Shown here: positions 30,736 to 58,589 of the stretch, in pieces
How positions within the stretch are numbered: the stretch's first letter is position 1
How the letters are laid out: each line of letters starts with the position of its first letter
NCBI GenBank assembly: GCA_032622095.1
Contig: CP136065.1
Location: forward strand, 217,290,151 to 217,354,150
Length of the DNA: 64,000 nt
Source of the DNA: Siphonodentalium dalli
Taxonomy: Eukaryota > Mollusca > Scaphopoda > Gadilida > Siphonodentaliidae
Reading direction: 5' to 3'
The notes under the pieces: model-generated
What the model saw: the letters and a program-made list of their open reading frames with translations, nothing else
Database searches by the model: none
Told to the model about the DNA's origin: nothing
Position numbers and translations under genes: made by a program

Positions 30736-30744
30736 CATCATATG

Positions 30745-31200
30745 TGACCCGCCATATCAAATCCAGTCGTAAGTCGGGATTGTTTTTACTCTGTGCCAAT
30801 GCATTCTCTTATATATGCGAGTCGACCATAGGTCGCCTCGCATATATAAGAGAATGCATTGGCCTAACAATTTTTTATCATTTTTTTTAAATAAATGTTT
30901 CTTACAATTTTTAGGACATAAAATAAAAAACATCCATTACCCTGCAGGGAGCCCCAAACATATATAGAAGCATATACAAGAGTGTCGTCTGCTGATGTTT
31001 GTCTGGGGCTCTGTATGGGTGAAATTATAAAATTGTTAAAGAATACAAGAAAAAATTTATTAAAATTGTAAAAATTTGTTAGGCCAATACATTTTCTTAT
31101 ATATGCGAGGCGACCTATGGTCGACTCGCATATATAAAAGAATGCATTGGCACAGGGTAAAAAAATGCCGACTTACGACTGGATTTGATATGGCGGGCAC
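30745..31200. mobile_element. hairpin-bearing foldback element, copy A6
   Basis: Full-length copy in the A2 orientation with both hairpins. The right terminus is slightly eroded (GGCGGGCACATA). Flanks CATATG and CACATATTC fit a TA-rich target. Confidence 0.88.
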
Positions 31201-31849
31201 ATATTCATTTTATCTTCAGTATGATTCGCTTGAGAACGTAATTTGATGTAAAATGAGCACATTATATAGCTTTAATAATCAACATGACTTTTACAGTAAA
31301 ATGCCCTATCTCTTTCCGGCAGAACTACCATATAATCTGTACTACTTCCTTTAGGCCAAAGAAAACAAAATTGGTTCGGGTTTTCCTACCCAACATATTT
31401 TAAGCCCCTAACTTAAAATGTTTTCACGATTGTTTTTCTCAATTTATTTTATAAAAAAACAATCAATGTGTCAGAATGGGCTGTTATCTGTCATAACATT
31501 GTGTCGTTTTCAGTTTATACAAATATAATCAAAATTGATGTAATCGATATCTTGCAGAAGACCTACTTTTACCTACTTGTACCGACCGCAATTTTTTTCT
31601 GACATGTAAGCCGAACTAGACAATATTTGTCTTTGGACTTATGAAGACTCTTTTTGAGGCAAGTTTACCAGAGAAACACATGCTACAATGATACTGTCTT
31701 ATTGGAGCGATTATTAATGTGAATTTTTTTTATTTTCTAAAAAATAGTAATATTTCCTGTTCGCGTAATAACGTTTGGCAAAAATATATCCCAGTGATAG
31801 AAGCTCGTGTTTACTGATATCCCTGACTATAGGAAGAGTTCCACACTGT
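31201..31849. other. AT-rich spacer
   Basis: No gene or repeat recognised. Confidence 0.4.
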
Positions 31850-37390: not shown

Positions 37391-37850
37391 TTTAACCCTT
37401 TACCCAACAAACCGGCCAAAAACGCCCAAATAAAGCTTCAACAGCCTAAAATATCTTCGGTCTGTCTCAATAACACCATACAAATATGGATATCATTGGA
37501 ACCGGTTCATTGACCACATTGTGATGGTTACAGTTATGCCCTGTGCCAATGCATTCTCTTATATATGCGAGTCGACCATAGGTCGCCTCGCATATATAAG
37601 AGAATGCATTGGCCTAAAAAAATTCTTTTTACCATTTTTCTTACATTCTTTAACAATTTTATAATTTTTTCTTACATTTTTTAACAATTTTTATAATTTT
37701 GTTCTACAATCTTTGAACAATTTTATCATTTTTAATATGTGTTAAGCCAATGCATTCTCTTATATATGCGAGGCGACCTATGGTCGACTCGCATATATAA
37801 GAGAATGCATTGGCACAGGGCCGTTCTGTTGGGTAAAGGGTTAAAGTGGC
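37391..37850. mobile_element. inverted-repeat element enclosing two family A hairpins (A8)
   Basis: Outer arms TTTAACCCTTTACCCAACA (left) and TGTTGGGTAAAGGGTTAAA (right) bracket the region. Inside, 37538-37821 holds two complete hairpins (GCCCTGTGCCAATGCATTCT to GCATTGGCACAGGGC) joined by an AT-rich spacer of degenerate TTTTACAATTTT repeats. The outer termini differ from those of A1-A7, yet the hairpin sequence is the same. Confidence 0.8.
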
Positions 37851-39042: not shown

Positions 39043-39660
39043 TTCTAGTTTGTCCCACGGTTCCCAAATTAGATCCGCTTCAAAATTGTTCTGTCTCGGT
39101 CTGTCCCAGACCTTTCTATTGGGACAGGAAATATCAAAGGTAAATAATATATTTAATATGAAAACATTAGGAATGTGTTTGTCTCGGTCTGTACCAGTCA
39201 TATCAGTTTGTCCCACGGTTCCCAGATAAGATCCACTTCAAAATTATTCTGTCCCGGTCTGTCCCAGACCTTTCTATTGGGACAGGAAATATCAAAGGTA
39301 AATAATATATTTAATATGAAAACATTAGAAATGTGTTTGTCTCGGTCTGTACCAGTCATATCAGTTTGTACCATGGTTCCCAAATAAGATCCTCTTCGAA
39401 AAGAATTCTGTCTCGGTCTGTCCCAGACATTTCTATTGGGACAGGAAATATCAAAGGTAAATAATATATTTAATATGAAAACAGTAGAAATGTGTTTGTC
39501 TCAGGCTGTACCAGTCATATCAGTTTGTCCCATGGTTCCCAAATAAGATCCTCTTCAATTTTTTTTTTCTGTCTCGGTCTGTCCCAGACCTTTATATTGG
39601 GACAGGAAATATCAAAGATAAATAATTTAATATGAAAACATTAGGACAAACAGTGTGTCC
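39043..39660 (+). repeat. ~162-bp satellite-like tandem array
   Basis: About four units contain GTTTGTCCCACGGTTCCCAA, CTGTCTCGGTCTGTCCCAGA and TCTATTGGGACAGGAAATAT, then GTAAATAATATATTTAATAT and CGGTCTGTACCAGTCATATC. Each unit includes a small stem, CTGTCCCAG with CTATTGGGACAG. Frames of 60-80 residues on both strands repeat with the array and are not genes. Confidence 0.9.
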
Positions 39661-39714
39661 CGTGGTTCCCAAATAAGAACTGCTTGAAAATTAATCTGTC
39701 GCAGTCAGAAAAAA

Positions 39715-40000
39715 AAGAAGCGGATAGTTTTACTTAGAGAACAGGTCCAAACTGATTCTACTGGGACAGGAGCGAGACACAACAAAACAGCGAGTAGTTT
39801 CACTCAGAGAACAGGGACCAAACTGATTCTACTGGGACAGGAGCGAGACAAAAAAAAACAGCGGGTGGTTTCACTCAGAGAACAGGGACAAAACTGATTC
39901 TACTGGGACAGGAGCGAGACAAAAAAAAACAACGGGTAGTTTTACTCAGAGAACAGGGACCAAACTGATTCTAGTGGGACAGGAGCGAGACAGACTATAT
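39715..40000 (+). repeat. ~67-bp tandem array
   Basis: Four units contain AGTTTCACTCAGAGAACAGG, CAAACTGATTCTACTGGGAC and AGGAGCGAGACAAAAAAA. The unit shares the CTGGGACAGG element with the preceding array, so both may derive from one ancestral motif. Confidence 0.9.
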
Positions 40001-40648: not shown

Positions 40649-41741
40649 AAATCTGAGATTCTTCTCTTGATTGCCAGCTGCCATAGTGGAATGATTATCA
40701 GAATAAACTAAAAGTCAATGGACTCAGCAATTTATGGCCAAAGACAATTCAATCGACTGCCTAATTGTGAAGATGACCAGCGGACGCTATCGAGTTCTCC
40801 CGAGGCGTGTTGTCCACAATGCTTTCGCCATCACGCTGTTCGTCGCGGAGGACCGCAATTAAATCAACTGCCACAAAGATCATGATAAAGATCGCAGACA
40901 ATGTCCAGTCTGGGATCCTAATGTTATTCTATCATTATTCCCATATCATACGGTCTTTTGACAAATCAGAGCTGACATTTCATACGGGTTTAGTCAATTT
41001 CTTTAACCATTTGATGCCGATACTGAATCAGCGATTAGACAAGGTGATCATGTGTACTCTATAGTGGGACGAAAAGTACTCTTTCAACGTAATGAGTGCG
41101 CCCACGCGTCGTGGAACGTACGTATAATGTGCATGATTCGGCGCGGGAGCGAGTCAGTTGATACATAAACCAAATGATACCCACCAAAAGTTAACTGATA
41201 CTTAAATTTGAGTCAAGTTATACCGTCTTCTTGGGTCAAATTATACCTTCCTGATTTAAATGATACCTTTTCAAAATAAAGTATTAAATGTTTATTGTTT
41301 TCAACTGGAAGTGTCCCCTTGTCCATGCTTGTCCGGCGTGATCAATTTTATTTATGATTCCACTTCAGGCAGGCAAATAACATTATATAATTTGGTCCCA
41401 ATCGAGACAGCCTGGTCATAGAAACAATTGAATCCGTGTTACCACATACAATCCCATGGTGTTGACATGATTGTGTACATGATGTAAATATGTTTTTGCT
41501 TGTTTCGCAATGTTTTGTGAGAGCAATACACCTGCATTTAGTAGTAATACACGCACACAAAACCAAGTTCATATTCTGCCACTAAATATCATTGTGTTTG
41601 ACGTTTGTCGTCCTTCCACAGGATCTAACATTTTGACTGAATTATATTTATTGAGTAACTGAAAATATCGATAAACAACAATCCTGACTGATATGATCAC
41701 TAATATAGTCAGTGGTGTTACCTGTTTCCCTATCTTTATAG
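40649..41741. other. presumed intron or intergenic sequence before the GPCR exon
   Basis: I searched the plus-strand frames for the TM1-TM3 exon expected for this receptor type and did not see it. No other gene is supported. Confidence 0.4.
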
Positions 41742-42107
41742 GTGTGTCTGTGTCAGTGAGCTGCTTCACTCTCGTCGCCATGTCGTTGGAACGTTACTTC
41801 GCCATCTGTCGACCACTGACATCTCGTAGTTGGCAAACGAGATCTCACTCCTACAAGACAATTATCGTCTGCTGGGCGCTCGCGGTTGTTGTCGTCATTC
41901 CCATTGCCATCTACACCCGCCACGTGCAGCTCAGGAACGGAAACCACTCGTGCAAGGAGGACTGGCCAAATCCAGAGTGGGAGATCGCGTACGCCGTGAT
42001 TGTAGATCTCGTTCTTCTCGTGATTCCGATTGGAATTTTGACATTCTCGTACGGCCAGATTTCATTCACACTGTGGATAAGTCTCAAGATGGAAGAAAAG
42101 TCCAATG
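41742..42107 (+). CDS. internal exon of a cholecystokinin/sulfakinin-type GPCR
   Basis: The exon is bounded by acceptor CTTTATAG (41741) and donor AATG|GTAAGC (42107), phase 1 on both sides, 366 bases. It encodes SVSVSCFTLVAMSLERYFAI (end of TM3 with an ERY motif), CRPLTSRSWQTRSHSYK (second intracellular loop) and TM4 (TIIVCWALAVVVVIPIAIYT). ECL2 follows with the conserved Cys (NHSCKEDWPNP), then TM5 (VIVDLVLLVIPIGILTFSYG). The CRPLTSRSWQT loop is close to that of cholecystokinin receptors, class A peptide receptors that couple to G proteins at the plasma membrane. TM1-3 and TM6-7 exons are not visible in the window. GC content and codon use are clearly more gene-like than the surroundings. 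The sulfakinin/CCK assignment is by motif memory; another peptide GPCR is possible. Confidence 0.8.
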
Positions 42108-43101
42108 GTAAGCTTAAATCAACTGCATGGTCGTCAATGTCACAGTAGACTGACGCATTACAGGCCCCTGGGGAAATTACCAAATACACCAATATATATC
42201 ACACAAGAAATATGGTTCACAAGTCAGATTTTTGGCGAAAGAGCACCATCTATATAGGACATGACACTCTGCGGAATGGTATGAAATGTTGAACAGAATG
42301 ACAATCTGTGGAACATCATTTGAAATTGCGTCGGACGGCCGATATATCGAGGAATATGGCATGCAGAGGGCTCGTTTTTGGTATCTGGCGAAAGGCCGAT
42401 ATTCGCCCCAGCCAGAATATTTTAACCCCGTGCTGACTTGACATCAGCAGTTTCGTTATTCGATCGACGCCTGACCTGCCATAATACTGTCGAAATCAAG
42501 GCTGCGAAACAGCTGTATAATTCTATTTTCACAGCGATAAAGCTAGATTTCTCGATGAATACGCTAGAAAACAAGTATTAGGTATCAAATGACGCATTGG
42601 AATGTTACGGATTCATGTTTCTGTATCTGTGTACTACAAGAAAAGGATGTTAGATCCATCACTCAATGTCTAACTTTGGTGATGACATCATCCAATGGTG
42701 CAATTCAAAACAGTTTTACACTGTGCAGTTTAAAATTTTCTTGTCAGTATAAGGTAGAGAGAAATGGGAGACTACGTTTCTCTTTAAAAATTAAATGTCG
42801 ACGAATCCAAGTGGTAAATTAATCCAGTCTCTGACGGTTCATGAGGAAAAGTTGTATTTATATTGGTTGTCATCTGGTGCTATTGTTTTTAAGAGTAGGT
42901 GGTAGTTCCTCGTTTCTTTTCTGCAGTGTTGGATACATGTTGGAATTGGAATGGTAGTTCTGCGGAAAATTAGTAATCAGGATATTGTTCTGGAGTTGCT
43001 GGAGTGGTGGTAAATTTAGTTGCTTTAGAAGAGTGGTGACAGTATTTGGCTTTCTGGAGTATATACATATGGTAGCCCGCCTCTATTTTATATCTTATTT
43101 A
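42108..43101. other. presumed GPCR intron; no exon seen
   Basis: No open frame resembles TM6-TM7. A block at 42440-42540 (GTCGAAATCAAGGCTG...AACAGCTGTATAATTCTATT) recurs inverted at about 57800-57900, just outside the LTR element, and marks another dispersed repeat. Confidence 0.45.
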
Positions 43102-44068: not shown

Positions 44069-44073
44069 GTATT
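44069..44073. repeat. target site duplication of LTR element (left)
   Basis: GTATT here and GTATT at 57708-57712 flank the two LTRs directly, the 5-base duplication expected for a Ty3/gypsy integration. Confidence 0.8.
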
Positions 44074-44337
44074 ATTATAAAAATTGGCTGTATATAATAA
44101 CCAGTTACAATATAATATATAATAATGAACATACTTACTATTAATACATCTTGACACAAACGAGGATTACAAAGGATATAAACTGTAGAATTATACGTCT
44201 GGATTGTTTGGTTTCTTTATTGTTCTGATTTCTCCGGTTGCTGGTCCACTCGATTTCGACTCCGGATCCTCAGTATAATTTCCGGTCTAATAAGACTTTC
44301 TGCACCATATTTCCGGTTTAATCCCAATTTCACAACA
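44074..44337 (-). repeat. 3' LTR
   Basis: This 264-base repeat matches 57447-57707 with one internal substitution (44247 against 57617). Read on the minus strand it begins TGTTGTGAAATTGGG; its outer end reads CCAATTTTTATAAT where the other LTR has CCAATTTTTACAAT. The LTR is short for the family. Confidence 0.9.
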
Positions 44338-44520: not shown

Positions 44521-44903
44521 TTTTACACAGAACTTTACACAATCACAGAAGTTCACAACACAATAAAATAAAAAATAACACTGCACCTACTGGCGTACAG
44601 CGTCGGAATGAAACAGTATGTCATGATCATACAAAATGTCAGTCATGGCAGTTTACAAATCCCTGGTGGTATATAATCAGTCCTGTACGGGTTATCGGAC
44701 TGACTCCAAGGATGTGTATAATCAGCTTTACTGACTTGGTTTCAAGTTGGCGGTATTGTTAATCAGAATGAGCACTCTCTAAATTTTGGAAAGTAGTAGT
44801 AATGAGCAGAAATTTGAGCATGAGAGTGTCTCCTATGAGCCGAAAAGCCAAAAAATAATTTGGAACACCTGATCAACTGACATAAGTAGGGTGAATATGG
44901 AGT

Positions 44904-45200
44904 TTAAGGGTTGATCGGCTGGATGCCATACAGTCTTTGGGCATTTTCCTGTGTCCGAGCTAACACATCCTCCGGGGATGTTCCCAGGACCCGTGCTAAG
45001 GAGACAGCAACCTCCCCAATGACTGCAGGGGTGGTAAAAGGACGTCCCTGCGAACCGAAATGGGGTGCGTCAGACTCTAAGAGTAACCTGCCTGGCTTGA
45101 TGCTTCGAATAGCATCTTTCTGGACTTCATTAAAGCCGGAACAGGCTGTGGTGACCCCGAAATAAGTGTTAGGTCTGAGATACGACCACCGGTCAACCAT
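44904..45200 (-). pseudogene. ORF3 C-terminal part, TatD DNase domain (downstream piece)
   Basis: 98 residues in line with the ORF3 piece at 47251-49665, separated from it by the non-LTR insertion. It carries the last catalytic element of TatD nucleases, LLLESDAPHF (metal-binding Asp at about residue 44), then PAVIGEVAVSLARVLG and a closing LYGIQP block. The stop at 44904 is the natural end of a TatD domain. The DNase reaction is known for TatD proteins; its role in this element is inference. Confidence 0.75.
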
Positions 45201-45736
45201 ATAGGATAGGATAATATTTTATTCCACAATACAATACATTATACATTATAATACATGTCAATTTGTATATGTATTGTGTGGAGTGCCGTGGCCAATGATG
45301 GCCGTCTACCCGGCACCCCTGACTGACAGAATACAAGCAGTAATGGCTATATAAAGACTTGAAGTATTTCACTATAGTTTCCTGATTATATTAATATTTA
45401 TATTGAATTTAATTATAGATATTGATACCAGTGAATAAACAGATATTTTGAGTTGTTTGGATATAAATGGATATGAATGAATATGCAACGGTCAAACGTT
45501 CTAAAATATTTGGAGTTTGTTTGGCTGTATATACTAAGGGAATTTATTAAGATTTGCTCACACACTGTGTTTATAACTGTTACAGTTAAATTTCCTTAGT
45601 ATATATAGCCATGCGTTGGACGAGATTTTGCAGGATACAAGTCGTAGTACTCTGGTAATTTAATGTGAGACAATTTTTGCATTTAGGGTAAGTAGCCAAT
45701 AGACTAAATATATTCGGAACATTTTTATCATTTTTA
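45201..45736 (-). other. 3' untranslated region of the non-LTR element
   Basis: It contains the block GCCGGGTAGACGGCCATCAT and GGCCACGGCACTCCACACAA shared with the 3' tails at 20785-20915 and 28699-28830. Those two are therefore members of the same or a closely related family. Confidence 0.7.
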
Positions 45737-47254
45737 TCATTTGTGTGTGCAATCAGGGCAAAATTTGTTTTTGCATTCAATTTTGTTGGAATACTGGTTG
45801 ATCAATTCTACACTCATCAGTTTTTTATAGTTATCTCGATTCCTATTAGTTTTTTGTTTTTTATTAACTGAGTTCCATATATTCGAATATGAATGTTCTG
45901 GGAGATTTTCTGAAAATTTTGTTCTTGGTGTTGCTTTTGGTCTAATGTTTCCTGCGGCTGCCTGTCTACTGCTGGTTCCTAGTTTAACACCGAATGAGTC
46001 TTTGAAGGTCCCTGGCAGTCTATTATAAGCCCAGTCATGCATGAATACTGACGTTTGGTATGTATAAATGTCACAGAATTTTAGAATGTTCATTTTTTTG
46101 AAAATTGGTTCTGTGTGACTGTTGTATCTAGCATTGGTTATTGTTCTAATCGCCCTTTTTTGCAATAAAAATATCTTGTTAGTGGTCGCCACATGACCCC
46201 ATAACCGAATGCCGTATACCATATGACTGTTGATAAGTGCGTAATATAGAGTTCGCAGTGCGTCACCTGGAAAGAACTTTTTAACTTTGTTGATACAATA
46301 AATAGCTCGAGCCATCTTAGAGCATACAGTTGAAATATGCTTTTTAAACGTGAGATTCTCGTCGATATTAATGCCCAAAAATTTCAAGGATGTTTCTTCA
46401 TATATATTCCCAACTCTGTTTAGTTCAGCTGTGTTTATATATAATTTCAAATCTTTCCATTTTTGATCATTATTTTCTGGATGAATTAGCATATAGTTAC
46501 ATTTATTTTTGTTTATGGAGAGCTTATTACAACAACACCAGTCGTGAATATTTTTTAGTTCTAAGTTTACCCTATCTTCGACAACGCTTTTGTCACAGCC
46601 TGATGTATATAGGGTTGTATCATCCGCGAATGATAATAAATTTAAGGATGTGGATACTGACATATCGTTGACATAAATTAAAAAAATTGTTGGTCCGAGT
46701 ATGGATCCTTGAGGGACACCACATGAAACTTTGGATAGACTGGAGATGTTTCCACTATAATCTGTATATTGTCGCCTCTCATATAGGTAGTCTCTAAACC
46801 AATTATTAGCAGTCCCCCTAATACCATAGTGTTCCATCTTATTTAGTAGGATTTCATGACTTATTGTGTCGAATGCTTTTGAAAGGTCAATGAATATTGC
46901 TAAGGTTGAATCTTTGGTTTTTTTGTCATTCTGTTCAACAACATGGTTTAAAAGATGCATTACTGGATGTATGGTGGAGTGCCCCTTCCTAAATCCATAT
47001 TGATGTTTATAGAAACGTGCATGTTCATCAAAGAAATCTACAATTCGCTTTTGCATAATTTTTTCGAGTATTTTTGAAAAACATGGTAATATGCTGATAG
47101 GTCGATAGTTTGAAAAGTTTTCTTTTTGCCCACCCTTGAAAATCGGTATTACTCTTGATATTTTCATTTTCTTTGGAAAAACTCCTTCTTTGAACGATTG
47201 ATTAAATATATGCTTAAGAGCTTTGGCTGTTTCATAAATAGATGATTTCATCAA
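45737..47254 (-). CDS. non-LTR reverse transcriptase, 5'-truncated but open
   Basis: 505 open residues. RT blocks in order: ENFSNYRPISILPCFSKILE (about 45-64), QYGFRKGHST (85-94), FIDLSKAFDTISHEIL (121-136), GVPQGSILGP (179-188) and LSFADDTTLY with the FADD catalytic pair (207-216). Then LKFLGINIDENLTFKKHI and a Cys-containing end (KNKFCPDC). The protein would copy its RNA at a nicked target, but the nicking endonuclease domain is absent, so this copy is not autonomous. No stop or frameshift interrupts the retained part, suggesting recent arrival. It sits in the TatD frame of ORF3 and follows on from its ATGGT site. Confidence 0.85.
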   Translation of the reverse strand: MMKSSIYETAKALKHIFNQSFKEGVFPKKMKISRVIPIFKGGQKENFSNYRPISILPCFSKILEKIMQKRIVDFFDEHARFYKHQYGFRKGHSTIHPVMHLLNHVVEQNDKKTKDSTLAIFIDLSKAFDTISHEILLNKMEHYGIRGTANNWFRDYLYERRQYTDYSGNISSLSKVSCGVPQGSILGPTIFLIYVNDMSVSTSLNLLSFADDTTLYTSGCDKSVVEDRVNLELKNIHDWCCCNKLSINKNKCNYMLIHPENNDQKWKDLKLYINTAELNRVGNIYEETSLKFLGINIDENLTFKKHISTVCSKMARAIYCINKVKKFFPGDALRTLYYALINSHMVYGIRLWGHVATTNKIFLLQKRAIRTITNARYNSHTEPIFKKMNILKFCDIYTYQTSVFMHDWAYNRLPGTFKDSFGVKLGTSSRQAAAGNIRPKATPRTKFSENLPEHSYSNIWNSVNKKQKTNRNRDNYKKLMSVELINQYSNKIECKNKFCPDCTHK

Positions 47255-49665
47255 TTGATTTGATAGACCATTTCTCTACATCCAGTGAAACAGTGGAAAT
47301 GAATCACTTGATGTTCGCGAGTTTCGGTTCTGACTTTATCCAGGGCGTTGTAGCTGACATCCTGACCCATATGCTGGCCAGGCCCCCCTCTTAAATGCAT
47401 AATTAGGGGTTTGCCCCACAAACGCACCATCTCCAAAATTTGCCGGAAGAGATTATACTGAATCAGTTGATCGCTATCCGGTAAAATAATGGAACGATCA
47501 AGACCAATTTCGCCGATAGCCACGACAGCCGGGTGTGCTATTAAAGCCTTGAATTTATTCATTGTGGCTGGAACCAGTAACTGCCTGATTTTTTTCGGAT
47601 GACACCCGACAGCGACCTTCCACTGAGAATCACAGGATAAGGTGTTGATATCTGGGTAATTATCGGGGTCGCAATAAATCTGTACGCCACCGATGACAGT
47701 GACGGGAAAGGACACCGAAATGTTAGTTGCCCGAATGGCTTCCAGTGCTGTGAATCTAGCATTCAGTTTGTGACTTTGACACATTCGATCAAGATGAAAA
47801 TGAGAATCGATTCCCGTTAACTTCCGTTTTGGAATGCCAGACTGGCGAGCTAGTGATTTTGTCATTGAGGTTAACACAGCTTTATAAGTCGGCTTTGGAA
47901 CAGTAATGGGAGCCGACTTTGATGATGATGATGATCTAACAGTTTTCACGCTGCTGGTAGCCTTAGTCGGCCCTGTGGTTGAGGGTTCGACTGGTAATGT
48001 GTTGGTGCCTGTCTGAGATAAACAAGCTTTCTTTGTTTCGGATGTAACAGAAACCGGATGGGTACGTTTCCGCTCGATAGGCAGGGGATTATTCGCCCTG
48101 TACTGTTGTCTGGCTTCATACGTGTTGTGTTGCCGGGCGTCGCATATTTGCCTATACCGTTCCTTCCTCCTCTGCTTCCGGGTCAGACCGCTCAAAGGGT
48201 TGGTCGGAACCGGAGTAGATTTGGGCGGTTGTACAGGTGAGGTTGATGATATAAGGGGTTTCACCGTTACGGCCGAATTGACCGCGTGTTCGACTGTATA
48301 AAAATCATGGATGATGCAGGCCGCTGCTATAGCCGTGGGAGCTCGCTCGGGTTTGAAAATGCCAGAGGCTGAAATGATGGACCGAGCTTCATTTAACTCA
48401 TCGACTGGGATTCGATTTTTGACAATGCGATCCCTCAGAATATCCATCAACCAAAAGTGGGAATTCGACTTTTGGAATTTCTGTATTTCACTGTCGGGCA
48501 GTTTATTTAGAATGGCTGCCAAGACCCGCCAATGGGTCAAACATGCGTTCGAATTGATCCGCGGTGCTATGCTGAACCCACTTGCTGGAGGGGTCACTCC
48601 CATATCAGAGCCAAATGTTCGGATAAGGTTGAGTGCCATTACTCCCAAGAAACAGGGCGTAGGAATTGCCTTTAAGTCCCAGTGTTCGTTAAGTAAATAT
48701 CTTAGCTTGGTGAGACGAGCTTGCTCATCCAGCTCACGAACATCTGGGCACAAAACTGCAGCGAAATGAGTTAAGTCGTCCCTAACTTGTTGACGAAATA
48801 TTTTGGGCACAGCCCCATAAATGTTGTCAAATTGCCACCAGCATGGTTTAACATGCTGCGTGTAAAAGTGATGCCGTTGCTGGCCTTTAATAGGACGGTC
48901 ACAGTCCTTAAACACACAATAGTCTGGTAGTTGTGTGTCTCGACCGCCTGTACTAACTTCCTTTGACCCCGAAAAGGAAGAGCTTTGTGAGGCTATGGTT
49001 ACAGTTGGAATTACCGGCGACACTGGGGAATTAGCTTTTGGTGGGCCCACTTGGTTACTTCCAGTGTCGTCCAATTTAGCATGACATATATATCTCACGC
49101 ACTGTTCGTCCACTATGCAAGCTGGTGGATGGAAGGCTTCCTCAATCAACTTGCATAGAGGGTTAACGTTGGCAACCGCTTGAGTCTGTATTGGCTCGCT
49201 AACGGCTAGTGTTTGCTGTGATAAGTTTTCTTCAGAGTCCACCTGCATAGACTCGACCGCTTGAGTTTGAATGGACTCAGTCACGGGAACCTCAGGCAGA
49301 TTCGTCAGGAAACTTGGATAGAACAGGTCTATTATAGATTTGCCTTCCGTGGGGGATACGTTAATTTCCTCCTTTGCCGAGGCCGAATTAGCCTCACTCA
49401 CTTCGACACCAATCAAGTTATCGATAGACTTTAAAATGTCTGATACTGGCAAAGGGGATAACATAGGTTTGGAAGAATTATCCAATTGAATATTAGGCAA
49501 ATTCATACCTGCTGCATCCATAATTTCAACCCGCTCCCCACTGGACGAATTGTCCTCTGGCGGCTGGCTGTGCTCCTCATCAGAATCGATGTGCAGAGCC
49601 TCTGTGTCGACAGCAGTATTGTGCTCCTCATCAGAATCGATGTGCAGAGCCTCTGCGTCGCTCAT
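47251..49665 (-). pseudogene. ORF3 of the LTR element: acidic region, C2H2-like finger, TatD DNase domain (split)
   Basis: 804 residues from ATG at 49665. The N-terminus has a duplicated EALHIDSDEEH acidic repeat (5-15 and 22-32), then low-complexity sequence. A C2H2-like finger follows (Cys250, Cys255, His265/266, His271), then a Lys/Arg-rich stretch (LTRKQRRKERYRQI). From about 618 comes a TatD domain: DSHFHLD (His622, His624), VGCHP, AIGEIGLD (Glu719), PLIMHLRG (His757) and HFHCFTG (His791). The remaining Asp motif lies at 44904-45200, after the inserted element. Six TatD metal ligands are thus visible across the two pieces. TatD proteins are Mg/Mn-dependent nucleases of the amidohydrolase fold. 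The ORF lies between the PHD end of Pol and the 3' LTR, where retroviruses have env, but shows no membrane segment. It is probably expressed from a spliced RNA; no signal proves this. Confidence 0.8.
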
Positions 49666-49765
49666 TCTGTAATCTTACTCGTACTCATGCTGAAATATAG
49701 AAAGAGGCCTTACAGACTGATTTATGGCTGAGCATGAGGGTACGAGTAGGAGCTTATAAAACATA
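49666..49765 (-). other. spacer between Pol and ORF3
   Basis: About 100 bases between the Pol stop and the ORF3 ATG. AT-rich, no feature identified. Confidence 0.5.
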
Positions 49766-50380
49766 TTAACATCTCGGGCATCGATAGGTGTCTAATTGAT
49801 CAGCTTCTTCCTGTGTAATATTAACACATTCACCATGGTACCAATCATTGCAATAATCACACTGGAGCATCAATTTTCCACCCCATTTTTTCTGACATAC
49901 GCAAAAAAGGCCAGTGGATCTCTCAAGTGTGACTTCTCCCGTCTCATGGAAGCGTTTTAAACATTTAGTTAGCCATGGCGGAATGGTTCGATCGTGACAC
50001 TTTTTCAGTCGATCGTGATTTACCACATTGGTGGCACTTTTAAAAAATATTTTAAAAAGGTATGGCGTGTATACTTTAGCAATTATGCCTGGACCTTTCC
50101 AAAAAGAAGAAAGTTTTCGGGCTCTCCCTTTCTTTGTTGCGGTGTCCAACAAGTATACTAAATCACCAAGCTTATATTCAAATTTGTTAATTTTAACATC
50201 ATAATCTCGTTTCATTTTTTTACAAGCAGCCTTCAAGTGCTCACGCGCGAGTTCATGACAATCTTTATACTCTTTCACCAGCGTTTGCACATATTCGGCC
50301 GCGTTTTCATATTCTGGTATTTTTGAATTAAAATTAAAAACGAGATCTGACGGGTGATTTACCTCACGTCCCAGCATCAT
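49766..50380 (-). CDS. integrase C-terminus with PHD finger (end of Pol)
   Basis: 204 residues in the same frame as the preceding Pol ORF, separated from it only by TGA at 50381-50383. It opens with MMLGREVNHPSDL, the normal integrase continuation, then a helical region and a GPY/F-type module (FWKGPGIIAKVY). Residues 159-204 form a PHD finger: Cys160, Cys162, Cys174, Cys177, His182, Cys185, Cys201, Cys204 (C4HC3). Phe159, Met171 and Trp180 lie where H3K4me3-reading PHD fingers have cage residues. Chromoviral integrases carry a chromodomain here. A PHD would be an alternative chromatin tether; histone binding is inferred, not shown. A TGA within the integrase is probably a mutation. Confidence 0.8.
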   Translation of the reverse strand: MMLGREVNHPSDLVFNFNSKIPEYENAAEYVQTLVKEYKDCHELAREHLKAACKKMKRDYDVKINKFEYKLGDLVYLLDTATKKGRARKLSSFWKGPGIIAKVYTPYLFKIFFKSATNVVNHDRLKKCHDRTIPPWLTKCLKRFHETGEVTLERSTGLFCVCQKKWGGKLMLQCDYCNDWYHGECVNITQEEADQLDTYRCPRC

Positions 50381-52696
50381 TCAATTTGGTGTAAAACCCG
50401 TAAGACGGTGTACCGATGATCGCATGGCCCCGGCGAGCTGTGAAAGATACATATCCCAGGATTTCTGGTTTTTATCAATATAACACCGGACGGCATTCAT
50501 CAATGTCCGATTCTGGCGTTCTGCGGCACCATTCGAGGAAGGTCGATATGGCGTGGTACGTGCCTTATGGATCTGAAGCGCTTCACACATTGCTGTGAAC
50601 AGCTTTGATTCAAAACACGACCCTTGATCAGAGAAAATTTGGAATGGACATCCAAATCTCGAAAAGAATTCTTTAACAGCTGTGTATGCTGCTGTTTCGG
50701 CAGTCTGGTCGGGTAATGCTATAAATTCGACCCATTTGGTGAACTGACAGGTCATAACCAAAATATATTTATTTCCCTTCTGGCTGAGTGGCAACGGTCC
50801 CAAAAAATCGATATGTACACGTTCCATTGGGGCCCCAGCGTGGAAAGAAACCTGCTCCCATTTAGCATGTCGAACCGGTTTCTTGCCTTGATTACACTGG
50901 GGGCAGGCCGCCACGAATGTTTCAATATCTTCGCTAACCCCATACCAATAGTAATTTTGCCGTATCCGTTCTCGGGTACGGGTTACGCCCTGATGGCCTG
51001 ATGCCGGAATATCATGGGCGAGGGTCAGAATTTCAGTGGCAAACTTTCGTGGAATAACCAAGACTTGTTGGGAATCCCGCTTGATTTTGTACAACAATTT
51101 ATTTTTTATGAGGAAACGTTGCCGGTTTATCCAAATATACTTAGTAGCTTGGCTACTAATAAAAAGTTCACCTTCCCTGGGGTATTTTCCAGTTTCTAAC
51201 CACCCAATCACAGGGGCTAAGTCAGGGTCATAACGCTGAAATTCAGCGAGTTCGTCCAGAGTACATACATCCGCTAGGAGGGCATTATCCTTGGGGGTAG
51301 TGGTCTGTCGCACCCTGACTTCAGGTTTTAATCCCGATGATATTTCTAGGTCAACCTGGGAATGGGTCCAACCCGTGTTCGAACAGACGGAGTCTGTTGG
51401 TTCGTAGGGATCTTCCCACTCATCCGCGGAAAAACCTAGGGGAGGGTTTGGCTGACTATCTGTCTGGCGAATTGCCGGACTGGCGCTCTCAGATAGTTCG
51501 GCAAACGTAATGGAACCTTTGGTTAGGGGAACCACATCGTCCACAGCATTTTCGAATCTGGTCCAGCTATTAAACACCCGAGTGCAATATTTACACCCAC
51601 CACAAGGGAGATCAGAGAGTTTACACCCTGTGAAATACTCTTCACATGAGCCGTCCGCAGGAATTCTGGACAGCGCATCGGCATTTACGTGCAATGTTCC
51701 CTTGCGATGCTCAATAACCATATTATACTCACCGAGTTTCTCTAACCACCTTGCAAGTTGTCCCTGAGGTTCCTTAAAGTTCATGAACCACCTTAGGCTA
51801 CTATGATCAGTCCTTACCAAGAATTTCCGACCTAGCAGATAGTGGCGAAATTGACGTATGAATCGTACTACTGCAAGAAGTTCTCGCCGTGTAGTACAAT
51901 AACGCCGTTGTTGTGGGGACAGCACAAAACTACCAAAGGCGATAGCTTTCTCATTACCATCTTGGACTTGAATTAATTCCCCACCGATGGCAAAATTACT
52001 ACTATCACAGTCCAGAATAAAAAGGTCAGTTGAATTTGGTAGGCTCAGCACAGGTGGCGAGGTCAGCGCATCCTTGAGCCTATCAAATGCAACCTGCTGT
52101 TCTGGGTTCCATTTAAATTTATGTTTACCGGTGATGTCATATAGAGGTCGTGCTAACTCTGCATAATTTTTTATGAATAACCGATGATAATTAACTAGCC
52201 CACAGAAACTTTCTACCTCTCTAGTACTCTGGGGTACAGGCCAGCTTTGGACAACCTCTATAGATGATTCCATCATTTTCACACCTTGCTCACTCACAAT
52301 TCTGCCCAGAAATTCAATACTTTTCTGAAAAAACTCACATTTACTGGGCTTGAGTTTAAGATTATATTTTCGGAACCGAGAGAGTACTTTTTCGATGTTT
52401 TCCAAATGATTTTGAATCGAATTGCCCATCAGAACTACGTCGTCCAAGTACCCTAAACAGATATCCCAGTTCAGACCGTGCAATACCAAATTGATAACCC
52501 TACACCAAGTAAACGGGCTTCCAGTTAGGCCGAACGGCATTTTAATGAAATTGAAAATCCCGTATTTGGTAAGAAAGGCTGTTTTAGCACGGTCTTCGTC
52601 ACGTACGGTAACCTGATGGTACGCAGCCAAATAGTCTGCCTTTCCGAACCACGAATTTCCACTAAGTGTGTCAAGACACTCATCAATTCGAGGCAA
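50381..52696 (-). CDS. Pol: reverse transcriptase (C-terminal part), RNase H, integrase core
   Basis: 771 residues. RT continues from the preceding frame: MPRIDECLDTLSG, KMPFGLTGSPFTW, LGYLDDVVLM (catalytic Asp pair at 85-86), then the thumb. RNase H: ILDCDSSNFAIGG (Asp231), RRELLAV (Glu272), VRTDHSSLRW (Asp297), NADALSR (Asp340). A Cys-rich linker (351-371) precedes integrase with an HHCC finger (His561, His568, Cys598, Cys601). The core has VHIDFLGP (Asp630), FSDQGSCFES (Asp690) and NGAAERQNR (Glu726). Domain order RT-RH-IN marks Ty3/gypsy. It ends at an in-frame TGA; the integrase tail follows at once. The start is not a true initiator; it joins the upstream RT frame by a shift. Confidence 0.92.
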   Translation of the reverse strand: MPRIDECLDTLSGNSWFGKADYLAAYHQVTVRDEDRAKTAFLTKYGIFNFIKMPFGLTGSPFTWCRVINLVLHGLNWDICLGYLDDVVLMGNSIQNHLENIEKVLSRFRKYNLKLKPSKCEFFQKSIEFLGRIVSEQGVKMMESSIEVVQSWPVPQSTREVESFCGLVNYHRLFIKNYAELARPLYDITGKHKFKWNPEQQVAFDRLKDALTSPPVLSLPNSTDLFILDCDSSNFAIGGELIQVQDGNEKAIAFGSFVLSPQQRRYCTTRRELLAVVRFIRQFRHYLLGRKFLVRTDHSSLRWFMNFKEPQGQLARWLEKLGEYNMVIEHRKGTLHVNADALSRIPADGSCEEYFTGCKLSDLPCGGCKYCTRVFNSWTRFENAVDDVVPLTKGSITFAELSESASPAIRQTDSQPNPPLGFSADEWEDPYEPTDSVCSNTGWTHSQVDLEISSGLKPEVRVRQTTTPKDNALLADVCTLDELAEFQRYDPDLAPVIGWLETGKYPREGELFISSQATKYIWINRQRFLIKNKLLYKIKRDSQQVLVIPRKFATEILTLAHDIPASGHQGVTRTRERIRQNYYWYGVSEDIETFVAACPQCNQGKKPVRHAKWEQVSFHAGAPMERVHIDFLGPLPLSQKGNKYILVMTCQFTKWVEFIALPDQTAETAAYTAVKEFFSRFGCPFQIFSDQGSCFESKLFTAMCEALQIHKARTTPYRPSSNGAAERQNRTLMNAVRCYIDKNQKSWDMYLSQLAGAMRSSVHRLTGFTPN

Positions 52697-53201
52697 GTGG
52701 TAGACGTCTTTTGCGGGTCACGGAGTTTATGACGCGATAGTCTATGCACCAGCGAATAGAGCCGTCCCGCTTTTTAACAAGGACAGGGGCTGATGCCCAT
52801 TCCGACACAGAGGGCTCGATGACCTTGGCCATCAAAAGCTTTTTCAAATGAGTTTCCTCTTGGTCGGCAAAGCATGCTGGGGTGCGCCTCATAGGCTGCT
52901 TAATTGGACGAGCTCCCTCTAAAAGAGGAATACTATGCTCGATTTGGGAGAATGTACCCAAATCAAACTCGTCTTTTGCAAACACGTCTTGAAATTCCAG
53001 AAGTAGTTTTTCAAGGCGGGCGATGTCAGGCCCTGGCAATAATCTCGACGAGCGCTCAAATAGACTCTGTAAATATCCTGGAAGGGTGGAATTACCCACC
53101 AGGCGATCTCCAGCGCTATTATTTGGGGAGCTCCCCGGAGATAAGTCGTCCGGAGCAGATTCCGGCTTGGGCGCGCATGACTTGACGGAGTGTTCAATCA
53201 C
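52683..53201 (-). pseudogene. Pol: N-terminal reverse transcriptase part, frameshifted at both ends
   Basis: 172 residues with a Pol linker, LLEFQDVFAKDEFDLGTF, IKQPMRRTP, the region before the palm (MAKVIEPSVSEWASAPVLVK) and KRDGSIRWCIDYRVIN. This is the first half of the RT domain. It is entered from the protease frame by a -1 step near 53200. It is left near 52695, where an extra base in an A-run puts the following palm in another frame. The first step could be programmed; the second interrupts a conserved block and looks like a mutation or an assembly error. Confidence 0.8.
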
Positions 53202-53940
53202 CTCATCAACTTCATAAGTTCACCCACACATTGTAATTTATCTAAGATTATCTCTGAATGTTGAGAATTTATAAAACATACTTTTGGGGGGCTATACCCC
53301 GAGTGCAAAGTAGGCAAAAGATACTCACCAAGTTGTTCATTGGGTTCAATAGTAAAATCAGCTAATCGTGGAACCGTTTCACACTGCAGTAACACAACTG
53401 ACTGAGGGGGTATAACTGTTCGCTGATTGACTATAATTCTAGAAATTTTAGCCACTTTTGGTTTTACCTTGGGAATTGTAGGAATCCGACGCTTTCCCAA
53501 AAAGATAGAACCTTTATTTGCCCCAATTTTTGCATCATATTTAGTGAGAAAATCCACCCCAAGAAGCATGGGATCTTCAATGGGTGCCACATATATATTT
53601 TCACTACACTCGAGTTCCCCAATGGTAATGTCTATGGGTCCCACCAACATACCTTCCATGTGACCATCACGAGCCGCCGTATTAAAGTGTAGAGATTTAA
53701 TTAAGGGTGGCTCAGGGCTGAGTTGGTGAAACAATTTGTCAGAGATAATCGTAACGTCGGCGGCTGTGTCTACTACTGCTTGGGTAACATGACCAGCTAT
53801 TTTGACCGGAACCTCGATGGCGGAGGCTGATTTAATTTGTTTAATAGTTAATTCCGGTTTGATTTCACCAGACGTTACATTTTTACCAGTTACGAGGTCA
53901 TTAATTATAATTGGGATCGGGCTCAGACCTCGGAAGTCGC
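53198..53940 (-). CDS. retroviral-type aspartic protease and linker (Pro)
   Basis: The frame overlaps the end of Gag and is entered by a -1 step near 53930. It reads GLSPIPIIINDLV, then the active site AVVDTAADVTIIS (Asp-Thr-Ala), a mid-domain, and VAPIEDPMLLGVDFLTKYD (the conserved ILGxDFL region). Proline- and lysine-rich linker sequence follows to the stop at 53198. The enzyme would cleave Gag-Pol after assembly and works as a dimer. The -1 relation to Gag is common for LTR elements, but no slippery heptamer has been confirmed. Confidence 0.82.
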
Positions 53941-56349
53941 CCCGTTCCCGTTTAAATCCTCCTTAAATTTAACTTTATTATCCCGGTTAGGGCGATTTTC
54001 AGGATTCCGTGAAGGGCAGTCTCTTTGAAAATGCCCCACCCCCTGACAGGCATAGCAAATGACCTTGGCCTTGGGAGAGGGTGACCTTGACCTACTTTTG
54101 AAATCTGACTCTTTTTTATCAAAGTGAGAAATTGTGCCAGACTGTGGCTTATTGGTCGCCATCTTTTCTAAAACAGTTGTTAATTTCTCCACTGTCTTTT
54201 GGAGAGTTTCCATATTAGTTTCCAAGGCGAGCATACGTGCCTTGGAATTTGAATTATCGCTCGAAGTTTTCCAACTTGGAGCGCGGGGCGAAAATCTACG
54301 AGGGCCTGGTGAATCACCGGTCTCCGAATCGGAACCCTCGCGCTTGCCTCGGAAGTGGTATCCTCGCTGCTTTGGTCTACCACGACCAGTCTGTCTTACA
54401 GACCTAACAGGAGAGGTTTCATCATCAGTATCCGATGAAACATGGCGCACGTCTTTGCGAGACACTTTGCTGCCATGAATAGCAGCATAATTGTGTTGAT
54501 GCCATCGGATTCTGTTGATGGCTTGTTCCATGGACTGAGGTGTTTCCATGGTAACAAGTTCGGCCGCCCTGGTGTCAGAACAGCCTTGACAGAAGCGCAA
54601 GACCGCTTGCTTGAAGGTAAAATTGGCCGGACATTCTTTAAAGGCTCGTGTGGCCAATGAGAGAACGGTCTCGGCCCATTCTTCCAGCGACTGACCAGGG
54701 ACTTGCTTTGCTTGTTGGAATCGAAGTTGGGTCGTTTCGGGCAAGTCTTTAAATCCGAAACGATTTTCCAACCCGCCAAGCAACTGAACAACTGTCAGAT
54801 AGGGATCACGCTCGGTAAGCAGCGTGAAATACTCGCTCGCTTTTCCTTTTAAACACCAGCAGAGAGCCTGCTGCTGGTCGTCCCATCCCCAACGTTGCGA
54901 CTGGGCATACAAAGTGAATTTCACCCTGAAGGCTTGCCATGAGTCGATACCATCATACGAAAACCCTTTTGGAATATGAGGCAGTCGATAATCGCCCTGC
55001 CTGCCGTGAGGAGCGACTTGTTGATTGTATGGAGGATTATATGGTTGGTAACCTCCCGGCCCTGAACCAATTTGATTCATCCCGGGGTTTGCCATCCCCT
55101 GATTTCCCGGATTCTGTATCCATTGATTTCCCGGGGGCGGTTGGTTATACCCAGGGTTCTGCATCCCTTGATTTCCCGGGGGCGGTTGGTTGTAACCAAG
55201 GTTCTGCATCCCTTGATTTCCCGGGGGCGGTTGGTTGTAACCAAGGTTCTGCATCCCTTGATTTCCCGGGGGCGGTTGATTGTAACCCATTCCCGATACA
55301 TTGGGTCCCGGCTGAACCTGGGCATGAGAGCCTGGGTTTCTATAACCCGACATATCTGGATTAAACTGACCGAAGCCAGCTTGAGTGGTACCAGACCCTG
55401 GACCCCATGGATTGAAGGGCCCGGTTGGCGTTGGATCGGGTGGCGGATTTAACTGTGCGAAACTAGTTTGACCCATGCCAGATTGAGTAGTTCCATAGCC
55501 TTGATGCCCGGTTGTGGCATATCCAGAATTTGGATTTAAATAGGAGTGTTGGCTACTCTGTGGTTGTGATCCGGCATAACCCCGATTAGGTTGGTTGTAA
55601 CCTGGCTGAGCGGGTTGACTCCATTGATATGATTTTCCATATGAGGAGGTGTATGTACTGGCTATGGTCTGACCATATGTACCAGACGTGGTGGCCTGGG
55701 TATAGACAGGACTATTTTGCATAGGCGGCACTCGCCCGTCACCTGCATATGCACCCTGCTGAGCGGCAGCATAGCTGCTCATTGGCGTAGACGTAGCAGG
55801 GGGTACAAAGCGTGACGATACCACTGTCGAATTGGCAGTTACGGTAGCTGCTGACGCTTGGCCATGATGAAAAAATGATGCAGCGGGGGCTACCACTGTT
55901 GAATAGGCAGGCATGGTAGTCGACGCTTGGCCACAGAATGAATAGGCCGATGAAAATGATGCAGCCTGTGGTGCCCCAACTGTAGAACTAGCAGTTACAG
56001 CTGCCGGCTGTTGGCCAAAAAGACCATAGGATGGTATAACAGGTAGTGTCGGGCGAAACCCTGGAAACGGTTCGCCCGCACTTCGTGCTGGGTTGGTAGA
56101 AACCATGGGGCTAAACCAAGCAACGGGTTGTGAAACTGTAACAGCCGCAGCTGCTTGTGACACATCGGCTTGGGCTCCAGGTGTGATGTCACCCTGAATC
56201 TGGGATTCAGACAAGCGACGTCTTATGAATTCTGGATTGGTCCTCGGATTTGCGATGGGAGAATAACCTTTCGCAAATAAGGCCGCCATTTCCTGACTAC
56301 TTGGGGGAGAAGGGGGGTGTGTTAGCTTACGCCTCACACTCTCCGGCAT
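53923..56349 (-). CDS. Gag with CCHC zinc knuckle
   Basis: 808 residues. The N-terminal half is Ser/Thr/Gln/Pro/Gly-rich low complexity, with tandem copies of YNQPPPGNQGMQN in its middle. The capsid-like core follows (IPKGFSYDGIDSWQAFRVKF, LCWCLKGKASEYF, LEEWAETVLSLATRAF), typical of gypsy Gag (retrotrans_gag type). A coiled segment and basic region precede a CCHC knuckle near 764-777 (CYACQGVGHFQRDC). It would form the particle and bind the RNA. The upstream frame at 56334-56750 overlaps its start by a few codons in another frame, so the true initiator may be there. Confidence 0.85.
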   Translation of the reverse strand: MPESVRRKLTHPPSPPSSQEMAALFAKGYSPIANPRTNPEFIRRRLSESQIQGDITPGAQADVSQAAAAVTVSQPVAWFSPMVSTNPARSAGEPFPGFRPTLPVIPSYGLFGQQPAAVTASSTVGAPQAASFSSAYSFCGQASTTMPAYSTVVAPAASFFHHGQASAATVTANSTVVSSRFVPPATSTPMSSYAAAQQGAYAGDGRVPPMQNSPVYTQATTSGTYGQTIASTYTSSYGKSYQWSQPAQPGYNQPNRGYAGSQPQSSQHSYLNPNSGYATTGHQGYGTTQSGMGQTSFAQLNPPPDPTPTGPFNPWGPGSGTTQAGFGQFNPDMSGYRNPGSHAQVQPGPNVSGMGYNQPPPGNQGMQNLGYNQPPPGNQGMQNLGYNQPPPGNQGMQNPGYNQPPPGNQWIQNPGNQGMANPGMNQIGSGPGGYQPYNPPYNQQVAPHGRQGDYRLPHIPKGFSYDGIDSWQAFRVKFTLYAQSQRWGWDDQQQALCWCLKGKASEYFTLLTERDPYLTVVQLLGGLENRFGFKDLPETTQLRFQQAKQVPGQSLEEWAETVLSLATRAFKECPANFTFKQAVLRFCQGCSDTRAAELVTMETPQSMEQAINRIRWHQHNYAAIHGSKVSRKDVRHVSSDTDDETSPVRSVRQTGRGRPKQRGYHFRGKREGSDSETGDSPGPRRFSPRAPSWKTSSDNSNSKARMLALETNMETLQKTVEKLTTVLEKMATNKPQSGTISHFDKKESDFKSRSRSPSPKAKVICYACQGVGHFQRDCPSRNPENRPNRDNKVKFKEDLNGNGATSEV

Positions 56350-56750
56350 CTGCTCACCCCGGCATCATGGAGAACCATTTTCTCGGGGGTTGTTAAACCA
56401 GATGGCGGCTTCTTCTCTGTCTGGGGAGGGGTCAAGGGTAACTGGCTTCTTGCGTAATCCTCCCTTCCCTCACCATCAGACTCAGACTGATAGTTGTTGG
56501 GGTCCGCATGAGCCCTCGGTACCCAGTTATCAGCTTGGGACTTTGAAGTTGGGTGACTAAAGTCAATCACACTCAACTGATCCCTTGAACTTCTGAACCG
56601 GGGTACGAGACTGAGATCCCTTTGTGATATTAGAGTTACCTGCCGGCGTAACTGAATTATATCGGCGGCAATTTGGGGACCAACCTGAGGAATTTGTTGC
56701 AACTCTTTCCAATTAGCTGTATTTATGAAAATCTTCATGTTGACCAACAA
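56334..56750 (-). CDS. Gag leader region with helix-hairpin-helix motif
   Basis: 138 residues starting at ATG 56750. Residues about 7-36 read FINTANWKELQQIPQVGPQI and AADIIQLRRQ. This is the ComEA-like helix-hairpin-helix pattern: I-N-T-A, hydrophobic helix, L/I-P-x-V-G-P hairpin, A-x-x-I-I helix. HhH motifs bind DNA backbone non-specifically. The rest is polar and charged. The frame ends just inside the Gag start; either one mutation separates the two or this is a short independent leader ORF. Confidence 0.6.
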   Translation of the reverse strand: MLVNMKIFINTANWKELQQIPQVGPQIAADIIQLRRQVTLISQRDLSLVPRFRSSRDQLSVIDFSHPTSKSQADNWVPRAHADPNNYQSESDGEGREDYARSQLPLTPPQTEKKPPSGLTTPEKMVLHDAGVSRCRRV

Positions 56751-57423
56751 ATCACTAAATATTAACCACTATGAAACCTTGCACTATCTAGACGCTAAGT
56801 AAAATATAATTACAACCAATTTCCCATATAATCTAGGAAAACTACTCTATATTTTACCAACATCTATTTTTATTTCCCAATATATCCAATAATAAAATAG
56901 TACATCTTCCGTCTTCTCCTGTCCAATATCAAAAACCTCAATAAATGGATCTTTAATAATTCACGTACAGTGATGTCGATTATGAAATTAAACCTACTGG
57001 AAATCTGTGCGAATTGGACAATGAATTTCCAGCAATAACATATTTTGAAAGTGGCGAGAAACAACAATTGCTGCAGAATCACGTTAATAAATTTGATTTA
57101 TGGGGAACCATGCACAACACAGGAATTCCGGATGTACAAGTGATGTGATGAAAAATATTAATCAGAATTGAAGCAAAAATTTCCCTGTGGAATTCACCGG
57201 AAAAAATTCAAAGTTTTTTCAACACTCTTTTCCCACAAAAAAAAAAAAAAAAAAACCCACCATGCGTAAAAAGCAAGGAGAATCCATTGAAATAAGCATG
57301 GAAGGCTAAATTACAAGTAAAGTGAAACAAGCAATAGAAGGCAATAGAACAAAACCACGCAGGAATCACGTGGAAATTGGGGTAGAAAAAATACAAGAAA
57401 TTATGCCGCAAAAAACATCAAAT
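56751..57423 (-). other. untranslated leader of the LTR element
   Basis: AT-rich sequence between the primer-binding region and the first ORF, with a poly(A) run at about 57238-57255 on the plus strand. No further feature recognised. Confidence 0.5.
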
Positions 57424-57441
57424 AATTGACGACTAACGCCA
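57424..57441 (-). promoter_or_regulatory. candidate primer-binding site
   Basis: On the minus strand TGGCGTTAGTCGTCAATT begins within five bases of the inner edge of the 5' LTR. TGG at its start would pair with the CCA end of a tRNA. The tRNA species is not identified. Confidence 0.55.
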
Positions 57442-57446
57442 GTATT

Positions 57447-57707
57447 GTAAAAATTGGCTGTATATAATAACCAGTTACAATATAATATATAATAATGAAC
57501 ATACTTACTATTAATACATCTTGACACAAACGAGGATTACAAAGGATATAAACTGTAGAATTATACGTCTGGATTGTTTGGTTTCTTTATTGTTCTGATT
57601 TCTCCGGTTGCTGGTCAACTCGATTTCGACTCCGGATCCTCAGTATAATTTCCGGTCTAATAAGACTTTCTGCACCATATTTCCGGTTTAATCCCAATTT
57701 CACAACA
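57447..57707 (-). repeat. 5' LTR
   Basis: It begins TGTTGTGAAATTGGG on the minus strand and ends CCAATTTTTACA next to the primer-binding region. Apart from one internal base and one base at the inner edge it equals the 3' LTR, which suggests recent insertion. It should hold the promoter for the element; no TATA box was singled out. Confidence 0.9.
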
Positions 57708-57712
57708 GTATT
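57708..57712. repeat. target site duplication of LTR element (right)
   Basis: GTATT, the partner of 44069-44073. Confidence 0.8.
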
Positions 57713-58589
57713 TGTGGTTAATTGGTCTCTATATGTACAAACACAATCCTTTCTGGGCGAATGAATACATTTTTATTGTGCAATAGATGCTAAAGTTCAT
57801 TTAAAAACAATACCAAATTTGCTTGTGGGCATAGCTCTATCGCTGTAAAAATACAATTCTACAGCTGTTCCACAGCCTTGATTTCGACAATTTGATGGTA
57901 GGTTAGTCGTTGACCGAATAATCATACATCTGGTGTCCGGCCAGTGGTGTGGTTAATAAATTTGGCTGGGTCGTTTATTGGCCATTGGTTAGAAACCAAA
58001 CCGAGACATATCCATGCCATATTCCTATATATAATCGTCGTCCCACGCAATTTCAAATTATGTTCCGCAGATTGTCAATCTGTTCAGCATTCCATCCAAT
58101 TCCACAGATTGTCATGTCACACCATCTATCATATTCGTCAGAAATTCACAAAATTGGATGTCGGTCATAATAAATGTACACAAAATATCAATTTAATTAT
58201 TACGATCACGAATGGTGAACTTGCAAATTCCCGGTGCGATCTGTCGACGTCGATTCGATTGATACCATCATGCACGTTATATATCATACAAAAGGTAAGT
58301 ACATGGCCGATAAGATACACTGGGGATATGTTGACTGACGTGAGCAATTTAAAGAATAAATGAGGCTATTAGGCCGACGCCTAAGACACGACCAGTTTCC
58401 GGTATATTTTGTAACTTTTCGGTAAGATATCCCGAGTTCGTTTCCTTTGATTCTGTCGGGTTATAATTATGTCAAACGATAGAAGATGTACTGGCAAATA
58501 ATCAAATTGGGTGATAATATATATTATTTATAATGGATATGGTGATACGACCTATTATGTAGGGCGTGACTAAATACCACCCAGAGCGA
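57713..58589. other. no gene; fragment of a repeat shared with 42440-42540
   Basis: The block at about 57800-57900 (TACAATTCTACAGCTGTTCC, GCCTTGATTTCGACA) is the reverse complement of 42440-42540. The 139-residue frame at 57944-58363 has no recognisable features. Confidence 0.45.

Follow-up and report, generated by a model that had tools for sequence, protein, structure and literature searches.

Results

The window analyzed here is a 64,000-nucleotide stretch of the scaphopod Siphonodentalium dalli (GenBank assembly GCA_032622095.1, contig CP136065.1, positions 217,290,151–217,354,150 of the forward strand), and all coordinates refer to this whole stretch. It holds a single long terminal repeat (LTR) retrotransposon of the Ty3/gypsy type, on the minus strand from 57707 to 44074, and the element is known from this one damaged copy. 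Between its integrase and its 3′ LTR lies a third open reading frame (ORF3; 49665–44904, minus strand), which is certainly real, internal to the element and of the TatD family of nucleases. An earlier description made from the sequence only had placed ORF3 here with this content; its coordinates are correct, and the coding strand is the minus strand. The boundaries of the element and the parts of ORF3 are, in 5′ to 3′ order:

57444–57707, minus strand: 5′ LTR, 264 nt, starting TGTTG, with the outer flank AATAC at 57708–57712 (self-BLAST, pairwise alignment)
57431–57441, minus strand: primer-binding-site-like stretch TGGCGTTAGTC, of the TGGCG type, two bases 3′ of the 5′ LTR (sequence)
49690–49707, minus strand: splice-acceptor-like site CCTCTTTCTATATTTCAG, 24 nt 5′ of the ORF3 ATG, fourth by score among the 769 AG sites of the element
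47251–49665, minus strand: ORF3 piece 1, 804 amino acids, with an acidic N-terminus, a finger-like motif and a basic stretch, followed by TatD profile positions 1–164
about 45201–47266, minus strand: inserted fragment of a long interspersed nuclear element (LINE), with RVT_1 (E 1.9e-40) in frame 47254–45740 and ATGGT on either side
44904–45200, minus strand: ORF3 piece 2, within the open frame 45218–44904, with TatD profile positions 169–253, the ESDAPHF motif and the stop codon
44338–44352, minus strand: polypurine-like tract AAGAAAAGGGAATAG, directly 5′ of the 3′ LTR (sequence)
44074–44337, minus strand: 3′ LTR, 264 nt, with the outer flank AATAC at 44069–44073 (self-BLAST, pairwise alignment)

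The two LTRs of 264 nt each differ at two positions (262/264 identical by self-BLAST and pairwise alignment), and the 5-nt target duplication AATAC abuts both outer LTR ends; if the alternative LTR end ACA were chosen, the end would shift by 2 nt and the target duplication would then no longer adjoin. Pfam places reverse transcriptase, RNase H and integrase in this order within a Ty3-type Pol, and the closest solved protein to the frame that spans reverse transcriptase and integrase is Ty3 Gag-Pol (E 3.1e-81). Together with the LTRs and the target duplication, this bears out the Ty3/gypsy assignment of the sequence-only reading, which had also correctly recognized the flanking LTRs and the polypurine tract, a purine-rich stretch immediately before the 3′ LTR. 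ORF3 starts at 49665, about 100 nt 3′ of the Pol stop, and some 550 nt separate its own stop from this tract. Since the LTRs, their AATAC flanks and the purine tract enclose it, ORF3 lies inside the element, as had been claimed, rather than in a neighboring host gene. ARAGORN finds zero tRNAs within the window. Beyond both ends of the element there is an inverted pair of 289 nt (42258–42545 and 57832–58118; 79% identical), probably a dispersed repeat.

The open run of 804 codons in ORF3 piece 1 is well beyond chance, given that the longest run in 500 mononucleotide shuffles averages 101 codons and reaches at most 245. Both pieces match the Pfam family TatD_DNase (PF01026), whose profile is 253 positions long and has a curated cut-off of 27 bits: residues 619–802 of piece 1 correspond to profile positions 1–164 (E 2.6e-18, 66.8 bits), and residues 17–98 of piece 2 to positions 169–253 (E 7.6e-10, 39 bits). 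The two pieces are therefore complementary on the profile, with near full coverage and both scores above the cut-off, and the TatD domain proposed earlier, for which a profile search on both pieces had been recommended, is established. The motifs that had been named for it were likewise all located, with HFH at 622–624, GCHP at 687–690, GEIGLD at 718–723, MHLR at 756–759 and HFHCFTG at 789–795 in piece 1, and ESDAPHF in piece 2. The metal-site residues (HxH, E, H, H, D) are present, including the HxH of class II; the motif itself and the point where the profile match begins locate the first HxH, and for the remaining residues alignments with TatD proteins of solved structure do so as well. Given these motifs, the TatD domain probably had enzymatic activity before the LINE inserted. 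The LINE fragment is itself probably 5′-truncated, its exact ends resting on the weak basis of a 5-nt ATGGT duplication, and its 3′ end has two further matches elsewhere in the window by self-BLAST.

Other identities for ORF3 were considered and rejected. A membrane fusion glycoprotein, as in env-bearing errantivirus-like elements, was dismissed because the frame matches TatD instead and no envelope family is found by Pfam at E values up to 0.1. Matches to the QatD defence system (PADLOC QatD, piece 2, E 0.00022; NCBIfam QatD, weak on both pieces) reflect general TatD similarity. Folded alone, ORF3 piece 1 gave a predicted structure of too poor confidence for use (mean pLDDT 38.1).

Regarding expression, of the acceptor-like sites that separate pol from ORF3, CCTCTTTCTATATTTCAG scores highest by a simple weight table. 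Like a retroviral env, ORF3 may be translated from a subgenomic RNA produced by splicing, with the acceptor 24 nt before the ATG. An upstream ORF of nine codons including its stop (49688–49662) overlaps the ORF3 start as ATGA, an arrangement that would fit reinitiation. The same gap contains an imperfect inverted repeat (49673–49751) that spans the acceptor-like site and folds no better than shuffled sequence. A regulatory RNA hairpin in this gap is not supported (z −0.44; 61 of 200 shuffles fold as well or better).

The remaining coding capacity of the element comprises:

56334–56768, minus strand: first open frame of Gag, with a helix-hairpin-helix motif (HHH_3, E 2.8e-7; Pfam), shifting frame against the remaining Gag in the overlap 56334–56364
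53923–56364, minus strand: body of Gag, with Pro/Gln/Gly-rich repeats, a PNMA match (E 4.7e-6) and a CCHC knuckle (E 5.7e-6)
53198–53962, minus strand: aspartic protease (gag-asp_proteas, E 1.5e-8; Pfam)
52683–53219, minus strand: start of reverse transcriptase, assigned by position and sequence, alone without a Pfam match, with frame changes at both ends
50381–52717, minus strand: reverse transcriptase, RNase H, and the zinc-binding and core domains of integrase (Pfam; nearest solved relative Ty3 Gag-Pol)
49766–50380, minus strand: C-terminal part of integrase, with a PHD finger at its end (residues 160–204, E 1.5e-10)

In the present copy an in-frame stop interrupts integrase between its core and the C-terminal part, and frame changes occur in the overlaps at 56334–56364 within Gag and at 53198–53219 and 52683–52717 from protease to reverse transcriptase; the overlap at 53923–53962 may be an ordinary gag-pol frameshift. 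So many lesions are odd given LTRs that are 99% identical, and sequencing error could be their source. Unlike the multiply broken Gag and Pol, ORF3 carries the LINE insertion as its only lesion.

Both the helix-hairpin-helix motif of Gag and the PHD finger of integrase lie outside the earlier description of this element. To our knowledge a helix-hairpin-helix at the start of Gag is unusual for a Gag protein. The PHD finger closes the integrase C-terminus and, among proteins of solved structure, is most similar to PHF2, BPTF and PHF8. Its residues F, W, M and W fall at what we take to be the cage positions for histone H3 trimethylated at lysine 4 (H3K4me3), with the PHF2 positions assumed as the reference. 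This suggests that the finger may target insertion to active promoters.

Searches for relatives by tblastn with ORF3 piece 1 and the reverse transcriptase–integrase frame returned zero relatives of the element among viral and prokaryotic contigs. Degenerate patterns retrieved either 0 stretches or 4 contigs from the viral set, and tblastn of the element proteins against all 4 of these contigs found nothing at E values up to 1; a single LINE hit among them (E 0.57) was attributed to chance. In phages, ORF3 piece 1 matched 3 of 50,697 records, in the TatD region only and at 28–32% identity, and these were set aside as ordinary TatD-like matches rather than relatives of the element. These collections contain little animal DNA, so the absence of relatives from them says almost nothing. 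Within the accessible open-access literature on TatD or TATDN2 and mobile elements, a scope outside which Repbase-type reports and most subscription journals fall, we found no LTR retrotransposon described as carrying a TatD gene; PMC5408686 mentions a retrocopy.

Elsewhere in the window, self-BLAST reveals a tandem duplication of about 7 kb (14145–21193 and 21190–29108, pieces 94–99% identical). A repeat whose copies reach about 460 nt occurs in seven places and in both orientations between 3242 and 32475 (e.g. 14718–15178, 15951–16380 and 30740–31204); it is also self-similar in inverted orientation and is related to palindromic units at 37539–37820. ORFs at 11318–12423 resemble tyrosine recombinases (Phage_integrase, E 1.2e-7, with weak DUF3504 and QRICH1 matches), which we presume could be a Crypton-type remnant. 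Two tandem arrays, with units of about 158 nt and about 71 nt, occupy 39047–39992, and an exon-like ORF at 41675–42148 belongs to the rhodopsin type of G protein-coupled receptors (7tm_1, E 2e-26).

Discussion

TatD proteins have been divided into class I, with a (G/A)xN motif, and class II, with HxH, the latter including TATDN2 and TATDN3; in higher eukaryotes the N-terminus of TATDN2 is extended (PMC10085689). ORF3 combines these TATDN2-type features, a class II HxH and an extended N-terminus; as TATDN3 shares the HxH, the motif alone does not decide. Compared by motif and layout rather than by sequence, ORF3 resembles TATDN2 in its HxH, its C-terminal TatD domain and its long N-terminal extension with basic stretches, but differs in being encoded by a retrotransposon and in having an acidic N-terminus and a finger-like motif. 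Given these features, ORF3 likely encodes a TATDN2-like class II nuclease.

The reading that we tentatively favor, at a chance just short of even, is that of a Ty3/gypsy element with an accessory TatD nuclease in the env position, which would be expressed from a spliced RNA and would act around reverse transcription and integration. TATDN2 is reported to degrade RNA in R-loops (PMC10707325 and PMC12709183), and the product of ORF3 could similarly degrade RNA in RNA–DNA hybrids, either in the course of reverse transcription and integration or shortly thereafter. Alternatively, it could trim 3′ ends and cut abasic sites in the same phase, like TATDN1 and TATDN3, which are reported to be 3′ exonucleases on single-stranded DNA and apurinic/apyrimidinic (AP) endonucleases on double-stranded DNA; AP endonuclease activity is also reported for the three E. 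coli TatD paralogs (PMC10085689). The N-terminal extension would direct the product into the nucleus or onto nucleic acid, while the PHD finger would separately guide integration to H3K4-methylated chromatin. Hybrid-RNA removal, or the handling of abasic sites and 3′ ends, would suit the needs of reverse transcription and integration. In favor of this reading are the almost complete coverage of the TatD profile by the two pieces, the motifs, the enclosure of ORF3 by LTRs, target duplication and purine tract, the high rank of the acceptor-like site, the TATDN2-type features and the similarity of the PHD finger to those of PHF2, BPTF and PHF8.

Several observations weigh against this proposal. 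The whole analysis rests on one copy of the element, which already encodes an RNase H, so that the added value of a TatD nuclease is not obvious. Of the 728 GT sites scored as donors, many are strong and none was singled out. The C2H2-like finger of the sequence-only reading stands as a pattern (C-x4-C then H-x4-H, residues 250–271), which is suggestive only, but not as a domain, as residues 1–488, the finger region included, have no Pfam match at E values up to 10. Sequence searches of the PDB with the TatD pieces weakly match bacterial TatD and YcfH, and the only human paralog they return is TATDN3 (E 0.06); the term TATDN2-like rests on motif and layout. In weak support of the proposal, synonymous codon use of the whole of ORF3 piece 1 correlates at 0.81 with the summed pol frames and at 0.70 with the LINE. 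But the correlation with pol is 0.93 for gag and 0.73 for the LINE, compared with 0.75 for the N-terminal part of ORF3 and 0.70 for its TatD part, and GC content at third codon positions is 0.47 in ORF3 piece 1, 0.34–0.49 in the pol frames and 0.32 in the LINE. This evidence is thin and leaves the residence time of ORF3 in the element unsettled; because codon use does not tie ORF3 clearly to pol, it slightly lowers the case for the favored reading and slightly raises that for a one-off capture.

Such a capture, in which this copy or a small subfamily acquired from the host a TATDN2-like cDNA without any function in the life cycle of the element, is a possible though doubtful explanation. The single copy, the lack of element relatives in viral, prokaryotic and phage collections poor in animal DNA, and the codon use just described are all in its favor, as could be the 10-nt word CTCATGCTCA, which flanks ORF3 on the minus strand at 44815–44824 and 49729–49738, occurs nowhere else in the window (0.06 expected) and might be an insertion scar, albeit a word chosen after being seen. 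Against it are the location of ORF3 after the integrase stop and before the purine tract, its own start, its good acceptor-like site and the absence of a visible intron; a standing accessory gene of the lineage is somewhat more likely than a one-off capture. That such a stable gene has a task outside replication, for example an attack on nucleic acid of the host or of rivals, or the cutting of abasic sites in the element's own cDNA as a counter to deamination and uracil-removal defence, we consider unlikely: AP endonuclease activity is reported for human TATDN1 and TATDN3 and for the three E. coli paralogs (PMC10085689), but no particular substrate is directly indicated in this element. Most improbable is an internal position in appearance only, produced by a host TatD gene that adjoins or underlies the element or by a join in the assembly. 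The several frame breaks in Pol and Gag despite only 2 differences in 264 LTR positions could indeed be sequencing or assembly errors, yet ORF3 is bracketed by LTRs that match each other, with the same AATAC outside each and the purine tract next to the 3′ one, and six protein pieces searched against the window match themselves only.

With less assurance than for the accessory nuclease of this one element, we can envisage an entire lineage of Ty3/gypsy elements in animals in which TatD is a permanent third gene that, along with an integrase guided by its PHD finger, serves hybrid-RNA removal or cDNA repair. Copies of these elements would then explain part of the TATDN2-like genes annotated in invertebrates. 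If the association is stable, a retroelement would have taken a cellular nuclease of the R-loop or DNA-repair type into its replication machinery, at the place where other lineages have an envelope gene. One could then test directly whether retrotransposition needs additional processing of hybrid RNA or of ends, and invertebrate TATDN2-like annotations may prove to be transposon genes.

Known systems offer partial parallels. Chromoviruses are Ty3/gypsy elements with a chromodomain on their integrase. The present element likewise has a module of the histone-reading type at the integrase C-terminus, but in the form of a PHD finger nearest to those of PHF2 and BPTF rather than a chromodomain; gypsy integrases with a PHD finger are absent from the accessible portions of PMC3286476 and PMC4120745. 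For the Hox cluster of the giant squid, a figure legend lists an ORF annotated as TATDN2 together with POGK and ZMYM1, a TatD gene near transposon-related genes as here, whereas the accessible passage is silent on whether that ORF sits in an LTR element (PMC6962438); this gives a hint that TATDN2-like genes may travel with mobile elements. A further parallel, in architecture, is with Ty3/gypsy elements that carry an additional or env-like ORF after pol, sense-orientation additional ORFs having been described as env-like (PMC8220671). The element shares with them the LTRs, the gag–protease–reverse transcriptase–RNase H–integrase order and an extra ORF between integrase and the 3′ LTR, but here that ORF encodes a TatD nuclease instead of a membrane glycoprotein.

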